Shown: positions 451 through 33,593 of the stretch, piece after piece
How positions within the stretch are numbered: position 1 is the stretch's first letter
Layout: the number at the start of each line of letters is the position of its first letter
NCBI GenBank assembly: GCA_017645585.1
Contig: JAGCOF010000008.1
Location: 1 to 50,354, forward strand
Direction of reading: 5' to 3'
DNA from: Bacteroidales bacterium
Lineage (GTDB): Bacteria > Bacteroidota > Bacteroidia > Bacteroidales > P3
Length of the DNA stretch: 50,354 nucleotides
Notes under the pieces: model-generated
Seen by the model: the letters and a program-made list of their open reading frames with translations, nothing else
Told to the model about the DNA's origin: nothing
Database searches by the model: none
Translations under genes and position numbers: made by a program

Positions 451-1809
451 TCAGGCGAAGAGGGTGCGGACAGCCTCCTCGACGAGGCTGACAGGCACCA
501 CCTCGATGCGGTGGCGACGCAGGTCGAGGCTGCGAGCATTGTACTTGGAGATGATGATGCGCTTGAAACCCAGGCGGTCGGCCTCGGCGATGCGCTGCTC
601 GACACGGCTCACAGGCCGCACCTCGCCGCTGAGGCCTATCTCGGCGGCCAGGCAGACGTCGGAGGGAATGGGGATGTCGACGTTGGAGGAGAGCACAGCG
701 GCGGCCACGGCCAGGTCGATGGCGGGGTCGATGACGCGCAGGCCTCCGGCGATGTTGAGGAAGACGTCCTTGGCGCCGAGCTTGAAACCGCAGCGTTTCT
801 CGAGGACTGCGAGCAGCAGGTTGAGGCGCCGCAGGTCGAAGCCCGAGGCGTTGCGCTGGGGCGTGCCATAGACGGCGCTGCTGACGAGGCTCTGCACCTC
901 AATGAAGATGGGACGCACGCCTTCGAGGGTGGCGCAGACGGCGGTGCCGCTGAGGGTCTCGTCGCGCTGCGAGAGGAGCACCTGCGAGGGGTTCTCGACC
1001 TCGCGCAGGCCGTCGGCGAGCATCTCGAAGATGCCTATCTCGGCGGTGGATCCAAAGCGGTTTTTGAGGGCCCTTAGGATGCGGAAGCCGTGCTGCCGTT
1101 CGCCTTCGAACTGCAGGACGGCGTCGACGATGTGCTCCATGACCTTGGGGCCGGCGAGGGTGCCGTCCTTGGTGATGTGGCCGATGAGGAGCACAGGGAT
1201 GCCGGTGGTCTTGGCCAGGTGCTGGAAATGGGCGGTGGACTGACGGATCTGGCCCACGCTGCCGGCAGGCGATTCGATGTCGCTGCTGGTGACGGTCTGT
1301 ATGGAGTCGACGATGAGCAGGTCGGGCTTGAGGGTGTCGACATGCTCGAGGATGCGCTGCACGTCGGTTTCGGCCAGCAGGTAGAGCTCCGACTCGGCGT
1401 TGCCGATGCGGTCGGCGCGCATCTTGATCTGCTGCTCGCTCTCCTCGCCGCTGACGTAGAGCAGGCGCCGGTCGCGGATGGCGAGGGCGGTCTGCAGCAG
1501 CAGGGTGCTCTTGCCGATGCCGGGTTCGCCGCCGAGGAGCAGGAGGCTGCCGGGGACGATGCCGCCTCCCAGCACGCGGTCCAGCTCGGCGCAGTGGGTG
1601 CCGATGCGGGGCGTGTGGCTGTAGGTGATGTCCTGCAGCAGCTTGGGCACAGCCTGGCCGGTGCTCTCTACTTTCCGTTTTCCACTCTCCACATGCACGG
1701 CCTCCTCCTCGAACGTGCCGAATTTGCCGCACTCGGGGCAACGGCCGAGCCAGCTGGAGGATTGGTAGCCGCACTCGCGGCAGCTGTAGTAGGTCTTCGC
1801 TTTCGCCAT
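451..1809 (-). CDS. radA: DNA repair protein RadA (Sms)
   Basis: RadA is a RecA-like DNA-dependent ATPase/helicase that processes recombination intermediates. Using the ATG at 1809 (452 residues), the order is: a four-cysteine zinc finger (C10, C13, C24, C27), a linker, the ATPase core with Walker A GEPGIGKST near 94-102, the RadA-specific KNRFG motif at 249-253, and a C-terminal Lon-protease-like domain. The ATG at 1809 is preferred over an upstream TTG at 1833 because the TTG lies inside the probable promoter element. The linker at residues 40-49 reads VESGKRKVES and is a copy of a dispersed repeat also found in other genes of this window. The gene converges with the DUF6266-like gene. Identity is secure. 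Confidence 0.97.
   Translation of the reverse strand: MAKAKTYYSCRECGYQSSSWLGRCPECGKFGTFEEEAVHVESGKRKVESTGQAVPKLLQDITYSHTPRIGTHCAELDRVLGGGIVPGSLLLLGGEPGIGKSTLLLQTALAIRDRRLLYVSGEESEQQIKMRADRIGNAESELYLLAETDVQRILEHVDTLKPDLLIVDSIQTVTSSDIESPAGSVGQIRQSTAHFQHLAKTTGIPVLLIGHITKDGTLAGPKVMEHIVDAVLQFEGERQHGFRILRALKNRFGSTAEIGIFEMLADGLREVENPSQVLLSQRDETLSGTAVCATLEGVRPIFIEVQSLVSSAVYGTPQRNASGFDLRRLNLLLAVLEKRCGFKLGAKDVFLNIAGGLRVIDPAIDLAVAAAVLSSNVDIPIPSDVCLAAEIGLSGEVRPVSRVEQRIAEADRLGFKRIIISKYNARSLDLRRHRIEVVPVSLVEEAVRTLFA
1663..1692 (-). repeat. In-frame purine-rich dispersed repeat inside radA
   Basis: On the coding strand this 30-base segment is almost all purine and encodes VESGKRKVES between the zinc finger and the ATPase core. 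It matches 25 of 30 bases of the segment at 18861-18893 in the M23 peptidase gene, including GTGGAGAGTGG; the five differences are all transitions. The same words occur in the GH29 gene. Confidence 0.75.
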
Positions 1810-1830
1810 AAACGTATCGGTTTTGCGGTG

Positions 1831-1838
1831 CAAAGATA
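1831..1838 (-). promoter_or_regulatory. Probable radA promoter, -7 element TATCTTTG
   Basis: On the minus strand TATCTTTG matches the Bacteroidota -7 consensus TAnnTTTG and lies about 22 bases before the radA ATG. No TTTG is present at the expected -33 distance; that position is occupied by a low-complexity repeat (1849-1879). Confidence 0.6.
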
Positions 1839-32189: not shown

Positions 32190-32270
32190 AACGCAAGGGG
32201 CATTGAATTATTGTATCGTCCTATAGACGCACAAAGGCCTGTTTTCTGCTCAAACATTAACATTCTTTAA

Positions 32271-33593
32271 CTATTTACCCACGCAGAAGCGACTGAACAC
32301 GTTGGACAGTATCTCGTCATTGGCCACCTCGCCGGTAACGGCGCCGAGATGATAGAGTGCATCGCGCAGATCCACCGCCAGCAGGTCGGCCGGAGTGCCG
32401 TCGACAAGGCCTTTGCCGACATGTGCAAGCGCCTGCTGCACACGCTGCAAAGCCTCATAATGGCGTGCATTGGAGAGCAACACGTCGCCCTCGGCCGGCA
32501 GTTCGCCACGCACAGCCTCGAGCATGGCCTGCTTGAGGGCGTCGATGCCATCGCACCGCTTGGCCGAGATCTGCACCACAGGCCACTGACAACCAGCCAC
32601 CGGCGACTGACAACCCTCCAAGTCGCACTTGTTCATCACCACAATCACCTGTTTGTCTGCCAATTCCAATTCGGGAGGCCTCCAAGCAGTTGTGGCATCA
32701 TGCACATAAAGCACCAGCCGCGCATCGGTCACCGCGCGCAGGCTCCGTTCGATGCCGAGACTCTCCACAGCATCGGACGTGCGATGCAAACCAGCGGTGT
32801 CGATGAAGCGGAATGTGACGCCGCCAAGGGTCAGCAACTCTTCCACGGTGTCGCGAGTGGTACCTGGAACGTCGCTCACTATGGCGCGGTCGTCCTCGAG
32901 CAACGTATTGAGCAACGACGACTTACCAGCATTTGGCAGCCCCACGATGGCCACCGGAAGGCCCCGTTTAAGGGCATTGCCCATGCGGAAGGAGGCTATC
33001 AGAGTGGAAAGTTGAAAGTGCAAAGTGGAAAGCAGTTGACACAGTTCGGTGCGATTGGCGAACTCCACATCCTCCTGGCTGAAGTCGAGTTCCAACTCCA
33101 TCAATGAGGTGAGGTCCAGCAACCGCTGGCGCAACTGCCGGAGCTGCTCCGCGTAGCCGCCGCGCAATTGACTGACGGCCAGACGATGCTGGGCAGGGGT
33201 AACGGCATCGATGAGGTCGGCCACCGCCTCGGCCTGCGACAGGTTGAGGCGGCCGTGACGGAAAGCTCGCAGGGTAAACTCGCCCGGGGCCGCCAAGTGG
33301 GCACCTTCGTCCACAAGCGCTTGCAGCAGTGCCTGTTGCACATACTGAGAGCCATGGCACGACAGCTCCACAGTCGGTTCGCCACTGTAGCCTGTAGGGA
33401 AATATACTGCCACCAGGTCGTCCAACTCGTCAAAGCGGCAGTAGGTGGCATGACGCGGAGACAAATCACTGACCGACAAGTGTCTCAACACCATTCGAAG
33501 CGCTTCCGATCCGCTGACCCGCACCACAGCGATGCCCCCCACCCCGGCGGGAGTGGAGACCGCCACGATGGTGCCGTCCGACGGACGTGTCAT
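32271..33593 (-). CDS. mnmE: tRNA modification GTPase MnmE (TrmE)
   Basis: With MnmG, MnmE modifies wobble U34 of certain tRNAs. The 440 residues show the N-terminal folate-binding domain (IVAVSTPAGVGGIAVVRVSG, AAPGEFTLRAFRHGRLNLSQ), helical domain, GTPase with G1 GLPNAGKSS (218-226), switch TTRDT, G3 DTAG and G4 NKCD (321-324), and the C-terminal catalytic FCVGK. The ATG at 33593 is chosen; the open frame continues 25 codons into an 11-bp tandem repeat array and is not coding. Two low-complexity insertions occur: residues 188-198 (helical domain) and 327-339 (just after NKCD). Confidence 0.96.
   Translation of the reverse strand: MTRPSDGTIVAVSTPAGVGGIAVVRVSGSEALRMVLRHLSVSDLSPRHATYCRFDELDDLVAVYFPTGYSGEPTVELSCHGSQYVQQALLQALVDEGAHLAAPGEFTLRAFRHGRLNLSQAEAVADLIDAVTPAQHRLAVSQLRGGYAEQLRQLRQRLLDLTSLMELELDFSQEDVEFANRTELCQLLSTLHFQLSTLIASFRMGNALKRGLPVAIVGLPNAGKSSLLNTLLEDDRAIVSDVPGTTRDTVEELLTLGGVTFRFIDTAGLHRTSDAVESLGIERSLRAVTDARLVLYVHDATTAWRPPELELADKQVIVVMNKCDLEGCQSPVAGCQWPVVQISAKRCDGIDALKQAMLEAVRGELPAEGDVLLSNARHYEALQRVQQALAHVGKGLVDGTPADLLAVDLRDALYHLGAVTGEVANDEILSNVFSRFCVGK
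32577..32615 (-). repeat. In-frame low-complexity repeat (second class) inside mnmE
   Basis: On the plus strand GGCCACTGACAACC and CGGCGACTGACAACC form two near-copies of a ~15-base unit. The coding strand reads CQSPVAGCQWPV, immediately after the G4 motif NKCDLEG and before VQISAKR. Orthologues usually have a shorter variable loop there. Confidence 0.6.
33000..33032 (-). repeat. In-frame repeat (pyrimidine orientation) inside mnmE
   Basis: Plus-strand AGAGTGGAAAGTTGAAAGTG and CAAAGTGGAAAG show the purine words of the GH29 element, here in the opposite orientation to the gene, so that the coding strand is pyrimidine-rich and gives LSTLHFQLSTL in the helical domain. The right arm of the GH29 element gives nearly the same peptide. 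Confidence 0.7.

Follow-up and report, generated by a model that had tools for sequence, protein, structure and literature searches.

Heptamer arrays in the window

The window analysed here is the whole stretch of 50,354 nt at positions 1 to 50,354 of contig JAGCOF010000008.1 of a Bacteroidales bacterium (GCA_017645585.1). It contains the genes for RadA, a GH29 enzyme (alpha-L-fucosidase family), an M23 peptidase, an oppDF-like double ABC transporter ATPase, a phosphohexomutase and MnmE. These genes carry short arrays of 7-bp units, which we interpret as probably belonging to a family of palindromic elements with a purine arm, a small core and a pyrimidine arm. A sequence-only reading had reported a purine-rich repeat in radA, the GH29 and M23 genes, probably oppDF and, in the opposite sense, mnmE. 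All five segments were present, and the radA and M23 copies agreed at 25 of 30 bases with five differences, all transitions, as had been stated. The repeat was not a single 30-bp sequence. The unit is a 7-mer, which the segments repeated in tandem in forms such as GTGGAAA, ACGGAAA, GTGGAGA and GTTGAAA. Two further copies had been overlooked, one in the phosphohexomutase gene (25986-26059) and one 5' of radA (1847-1886).

The GH29 copy (17096-17190) was a complete element, with a purine arm at 17098-17128, the core AGGCTGCCGCACAAGG in the spacer and a pyrimidine arm at 17151-17190. The M23 copy (18861-18974) had a purine arm of GTGGAGA and GCGGAAA units (18861-18891) opposed to a pyrimidine arm of TTTCACC units (18923-18971); it was degenerate and fell under the threshold of the pair scan. 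Both genes thus held two opposed arms, where single segments had been noted. In the phosphohexomutase gene (25874-27307, forward strand), a purine arm of AAAAGTS units was followed by an 11-nt spacer without the core and a pyrimidine arm of CTCACCT units. Opposed arms were seen in these three genes and in many places outside the window, and single-armed arrays occurred alongside the paired ones.

The remaining copies were simpler. The radA copy (1663-1692, reverse strand) was a purine array read in sense, in the linker between the zinc ribbon and the ATPase domain. The intergenic copy 5' of radA (1847-1886, forward strand) consisted of a purine arm of AGTTTAA units followed by GGCTGACGG, and no pyrimidine arm was seen there. 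A degenerate purine array occupied the variable loop of the oppDF-like ATPase (22463-22511, forward strand), where congeners bear other repeat units. A short AAAGATG purine array lay in the linker between its two ABC domains (22955-22971, forward strand), and 7 of the 29 aligned species carried 7/14- or 9/18-bp arrays in this linker. The mnmE array (33003-33032, forward strand) was read as the pyrimidine strand, giving LSTLHFQLST. The proposed placement of the copies at linkers or loops agreed with the radA linker and the opp variable loop; it did not suit mnmE, where the array fell inside the region covered by the model of the MnmE helical domain, with no evident linker. Following the M23 gene, a terminator-like hairpin (19516-19541, forward strand) contained the core half-site GGCTGACGC..GCGCCAGCC but had no heptamer arms.

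Period 7 was the firmer signal than the words originally quoted. With up to one mismatch, GTGGAGAGTGG matched the window three times, where 1.16 matches were expected, and this number was reached in 11 of 100 shuffles. AAACGGAAAG matched 10 times against 2.38 expected, which none of 100 shuffles reached. Measured against expectation from composition, the original words therefore gave a divided result, and exact words were dropped as evidence, since GTGGAGAGTGG was not above chance. A word-independent period scan was made on 450 kb of the host draft genome (1.93 Mb in 62 contigs, 83% complete). The scanned stretches were picked around pattern matches, so that the array density was biased upward. 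Period-7 arrays numbered 59, against 1 in simulated sequence, an excess of tandem units as in long simple-sequence repeats, and period-11 arrays 49 against 0. Periods 14, 22 and 21 gave 39, 28 and 10 arrays, respectively, and all remaining periods between 3 and 30 gave 0 to 6. Within the window there were five period-7 arrays, compared with 0, 1 and 0 in three simulations.

Opposed arms around a common core

The comparison set consisted of 58 congener genomes and the host (59 in total), all drafts. Arrays were scanned in 79 sequences of the genus (1.48 Mb); the scan for arm pairs included 20 loci around radA, some possibly from genomes also in the genus set. Neighbouring period-7 arrays formed 37 pairs, of which 29 were purine-then-pyrimidine, none the reverse, and five and three were of the two same-sense kinds (P = 4e-9 for the polarity of the paired arms). 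In 18 of the 29 spacers, a GCTGNCGC/GCGNCAGC-like core (GCTGNCGC or its complement, with at most one mismatch) was found, compared with 5.0 in random segments. The core took the form GCTGMCGCA or TGCGKCAGC. The elements were 58-200 bp long with a median of 81 (41 pairs), and the median spacer was 18 nt.

The core was associated with one side of the arrays. TGCGKCAGC (at most one mismatch) lay within about 30 bases of the inner side, 5' of the pyrimidine strand, in 23 of the 156 period-7 arrays in the 1.48 Mb, and its complement in 14, where random expectation was about 2%. On the outer side, each of the two forms was found in only two arrays. Arrays of 8-, 9-, 10- and 11-bp units (54, 20, 11 and 95, respectively) had the core in 0 to 2 cases per class. 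The arm words varied, even within one genome; the period, the polarity and the core persisted.

RNA folding gave z of -4.3 or lower for eight of 10 elements, including the GH29 element (z -4.3). The phosphohexomutase and M23 copies folded no better than shuffled sequences (z -0.7 for M23).

Distribution

A core-plus-arm pattern was defined as TGCGKCAGC followed, after two free bases, by a stretch of 26 bases without G. It had 198 matches in 36 of the 59 genus genomes, compared with five for the reversed-pattern control. In 40 genomes from other families of the same order it had nine matches, and the control two. Among the matches listed, inspection by eye found the arm words TTTTCAA, ATTCTCA, ATTCTTC, TTAAACT, TATAACC, TCATCAC and TTTCCAC, with many of them even inside a single genome (such as G002), and sometimes 8-bp units. 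Three tandem RYKGARA units were found in 54 of the 58 congeners (up to 620 matches) and in 10 of the 40 genomes from other families; four congeners lacked them. Near radA, period-7 arrays were present in nine of 20 loci of near relatives. The exact core-plus-arm pattern, the one pattern tried, had no match in viral contigs.

Of 26 genus places of this pattern among 30 loci listed, 14 were intergenic, eight were in predicted genes and four at gene edges. By a simple gene caller, 85% of the 450-kb host sample was coding, and its 59 period-7 arrays divided into 32 genic, 16 intergenic and 11 at edges. The genic arrays were read in the pyrimidine sense in 20 cases and in the purine sense in 12. 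The use of both strands, the intergenic copies and the different arm words around one core bear out the earlier proposal that the DNA, and not the peptide, is the unit.

Reading frame and insertion in genes

As 7 leaves a remainder of 1 on division by 3, seven codons span three units, and the same heptapeptide results in any frame. The coding copies kept the frame, as noted before, and this and the similar peptides both follow from the arithmetic. The frame is automatic within an array, so that only the total length and stop codons matter. Words of the GTGGAAA type are free of stops on both strands. GTTGAAA, ATTGAGA and GGTGAGA, read as purine strands, have stops in all three frames. In two purine-sense copies, TTA units were found among TGA units (L265 12118 and L268 14785).

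The phosphohexomutase copy was the clearest case in the window, a clean in-frame insertion. The window had TFLK, 22 residues and LKIAVGRD, and six congeners had TFLK followed by seven residues. The net gain was 15 in-frame residues, absent from all six aligned congeners, which were 87-94% identical. In a separate count, seven of seven orthologue matches were shorter. A structure prediction of this protein had a mean predicted local distance difference test score of 35 and was not used.

For the other coding copies, the claim of insertion inside genes held in part. In GH29, the purine arm added seven residues compared with 29 aligned loci; one genome outside that alignment (G057) has a similar stretch. 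The pyrimidine arm added 11-12 residues relative to some close congeners and none relative to others. For radA and mnmE there was no net length change in the linker or helix, and a clean insertion is therefore unsupported at these two sites. By eye, the radA array was shared in place and phase by four related genomes (L031, L034, L039 and L048). Another word occupied the linker in L043, and the remaining aligned genomes had other linkers of like length. Five more distant Bacteroidota did not have the array residues of RadA, the one protein checked in this way. The mnmE site was 13 residues long in three array carriers and had a median of 13 (range 6-13) in 27 others, at least two of which were wrongly turned loci. 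The three carriers had different units at the same length, namely five CTCAACT units in G036, CTCTCCA units in G019 and TTTCCAC-type units in the window. MnmE of G023 had a similar peptide without DNA repeats.

These alignments covered five genes, and sequences that exceeded a limit of three unknown residues were excluded (29 of 30 stayed for opp, and all for the other four genes). They assume 1,500-base flanks, and contig-end or wrongly turned loci remain as noise (L145, L167, L181, L190, L219, L228, L248 and L256, judged by eye). At 19 internal array sites in the five genes, some of which were codon-like 9-bp repeats outside the heptamer family, the median length change was at least three residues at 13 and -2 to 0 at six. 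Eight of 38 coding arrays in 32 genes were testable against the congener sequence, where 26 of the genes had no match; the median gain was at least five residues in three of the eight. Phase variation of the coding arrays was set aside, as radA, mnmE and the phosphohexomutase gene are housekeeping genes.

Comparison of close species

Alignments of close species contained both whole-element and unit-level differences. Of G037 and G006, one had a whole intergenic element that the other lacked (L313 3656-3753; flank identity 0.65-0.69), and a second such case was less secure (L317 7550-7623; flanks 0.48-0.50). An element shared by the two had a different word in the pyrimidine arm (L317 10447-10554). 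The same loop of the transporter ATPase had 8-bp units in one and 9-bp units in the other (L315 3667-3711; flanks 0.80), and a 9-bp array had changed in concert (L316 19081; flanks 0.90). G027 and G021 shared an orthologous element (L353 9230; flanks 0.73) with the identical core TTATCCGGGTGCGGCAGC, a changed purine arm and pyrimidine arms that differed by one 7-bp unit. A 37-bp period-7 array was present in only one of G040 and G058 (L358 8755; flanks 0.83), and G054 and G042 showed a 21-bp in-frame difference within a coding array. The indel listing held 100 differences of at least nine bases, many of them alignment noise, and two of the eight species pairs in one comparison round yielded no array site.

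Arrays of 8-bp units (GAATGTGT type and others) differed by one unit or were present in one species of close pairs (L353 4526-4581; L355 near 3158, with the array in L356; L317 4940-5040). Arrays of 9-bp units (CAGAATACT, TCTGATTAT and CTAGTATTA) occupied the same protein loop in other species (the opp loop of G036 in L238 and of G052 in L252) or were intergenic; further places were L316 19081 and L307 11042-11077.

Interpretation and alternatives

With the layout, polarity, core, distribution, presence or absence between species, one 15-residue insertion and one-unit changes established, we consider it probable (about 0.6) that these arrays represent a genus-wide family of short, non-autonomous palindromic elements, in which slippage or conversion rewrites the arms. 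The elements would spread to new sites at the DNA level, whole or as arms, and would carry no gene of their own. Once in place, the arms would lose and regain uniformity by replication slippage or conversion; the unit word would drift, and the period and polarity would stay. The copies that survive in genes would be those in indel-tolerant loops, with a length that is a multiple of three and no stops. Units of 7 bp suit genes in this respect, because three of them make the same seven codons in every frame.

Several observations weigh against this interpretation. In 11 of the 29 opposed pairs, including the phosphohexomutase copy, the core was missing, and by a script test a left purine arm was present at nine of the 26 genus core-plus-arm places. 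Core-like words are common by themselves: TGCGGCAGC occurred, with up to one mismatch, at 1,191 places, and a heptamer arm accompanied it with the expected polarity at 13 of these and with the reverse polarity at three. Period-7 arrays were also found outside the genus, in four of 60 loci of more distant Bacteroidota. At the six of 19 coding sites without a net length gain, the arrays may have grown in place. The genomes are drafts, and some compared pairs may be one genome under two names. No agent of mobility stood out. Y1 transposase matched 39 of the 59 genus genomes and was not found in the host draft, and its matches did not correlate with the array count (rho 0.12, P = 0.35, 59 genomes). 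RVT_1 matched 24 of 59, with none in the host, G037, G002, G006, G051 or G054. These absences are weak evidence, because the drafts are incomplete; neither RAYT (Y1) nor a reverse transcriptase (RVT_1) found support as the agent. No target-site duplication was noticed by eye in the alignments, where no systematic search was made.

The arrays could instead be ordinary long simple-sequence repeats, arising by independent slippage, strand bias and loop tolerance, with incidental palindromes. The one-unit differences between close species and the start of the phosphohexomutase purine arm on a native CTGAAAA are consistent with this, and heptanucleotides are cited as the most abundant class in most genomes of Mrazek 2007 (as given in the available text of PMC4679880). 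Against independent slippage stand the 29:0 polarity, the common core on one side only, the words common to many loci of one genome, and the presence and absence of arm-core-arm units between species, and we regard it as unlikely. The short, dispersed, palindromic and partly genic copies also resemble a classical family of miniature inverted-repeat transposable elements (MITEs) or repetitive extragenic palindromes (REPs) moved in trans by a transposase, for which the Y1 count in the genus speaks. Such a family appears improbable here, as the arm words change and leave no fixed terminal sequence, duplications were not noticed, and Y1 was undetected in the host and in the array-rich G006, G037 and G042.

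An A-rich arm, a GC-rich core and a T-rich arm resemble a terminator, the hairpin after the M23 gene shares the core, and most of the elements fold well. On this view the elements would be selected for a role in RNA or transcription, as hairpins of the mRNA or as bidirectional terminators, and would spread by working in mRNA. This explanation is decidedly improbable: arm-core-arm copies lie inside housekeeping genes, the phosphohexomutase and M23 copies fold no better than shuffles, arms such as TATAACC are not a U tract, and Rfam at gathering thresholds yielded only a tRNA in 128 kb. An artefact of assembly or binning of metagenome-assembled genomes, in which many-contig drafts assemble repeats poorly, is hardly credible, in view of the recurrence of one core and arm across 36 of the 59 genomes, the orthologous elements in species pairs and the preserved open reading frames.

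A bolder version, which we offer as speculation with odds well against it, is a selfish element defined by its layout, in which the small core provokes the synthesis of 7-bp arrays of any word. One arm would be poor in C and the other poor in G, and both would be synthesised anew, through template switching or through repeated priming on the hairpin of the core, and not reproduced from a master copy. If true, this would explain the many words around one core in a genome, and would be a prokaryotic counterpart of the addition of sequence in repeats at DNA ends.

Relation to known repeats

Rickettsia palindromic elements (RPEs) are short palindromic repeats found between and, in frame, inside unrelated genes; they are about 150 bp long, and a conserved peptide is reported to be encoded by each of them (available text of PMC10969869 and PMC3733652). 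The likeness in behaviour that had been proposed was upheld by comparison with these descriptions: the present elements are palindromic and dispersed, with in-frame copies in unrelated genes. They differ in their tandem 7-mer arms, whose word and peptide change between sites and at the same site, with the core, period and polarity kept. CGTC-tagged REPs are short palindromes in five phyla, including Bacteroidetes, apparently with no dedicated transposase, and they have counterparts in two RPE families of R. conorii (PMC3733652, in the part available). The present elements are likewise short palindromes, and the core form TGCGTCAGC contains CGTC. In that text, however, CGTC tags one end of an 8-9 bp stem and tandem arms go unmentioned, whereas here CGTC lies inside the core. 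Of 42 cores next to a G-free arm, 14 did not contain it, and in one L298 copy it lay, by eye, within the stem.

Dispersed heptamer arrays, among them the TAACTGA repeats of Beggiatoaceae, occur in that family, in Cyanobacteria and in five Bacteroidetes, and some lie within open reading frames. As the accessible part of that source describes them, the TAACTGA repeats have one fixed word, are mostly direct and, in the main genome, lie just upstream of starts (PMC4679880). Here the words vary and those listed differ from TAACTGA, a core separates opposed arms, and 32 of 59 arrays are genic. The 29:0 opposition and the shared core likewise set the elements apart from plain direct heptanucleotide repeats. 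PARCEL are palindromic DNA coding repeats spread among genes; their description, as far as available, is of a tandem 25-residue protein repeat in open reading frames of unassigned function, with no mention of a 7-bp unit (PMC2996958). Compared with MITEs, the arms are inverted but of changing word, with the result on duplications given above. We placed the elements in neither the RPEs nor the heptamer repeats, because they show neither a conserved peptide nor a plain repeat. The nearest kinds appear to be RPEs and CGTC-tagged REPs in behaviour, and heptamer repeats in arm structure. No description of the arm-core-arm layout was found in the literature searched, most subscription papers being outside reach.

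In-frame palindromic insertions as a source of new protein have been described chiefly for Rickettsia, according to the available parts of PMC10969869 and PMC3733652. The present genus would offer a second rich system, with dozens of related species and housekeeping proteins with repeat-filled loops, from the empty site to the degraded copy. It would open to testing the passage of non-coding repeats into protein, the kinds of loop that tolerate them and the means by which palindromes with no apparent transposase are copied. Such loops may pass for lineage-specific domains in protein models.

Other arrays in the window and host genome

Arrays of 11-bp units lay directly upstream of the GH29 (16248-16305), mnmE (33616-33669) and phosphohexomutase (25690-25749) genes. 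Their units were of the AGTCGGACWTG type twice, and GACTTCCCATC. The 95 period-11 arrays in the 1.48 Mb of the genus had no link to the core. The long open reading frame of mnmE (32271-33668) begins inside the array at 33616-33669; its true start is probably downstream, because most congener matches leave out at least the first 12 residues of the query. The host genome also contained a second palindromic family, with 11-bp arms, CAGTTCTTCAA and TTGAAGAACTG, around an A/T-rich loop (L262 17433-17545, L267 9653-9727, L274 6220-6276, L275 2772-2850 and L276 9266-9386).

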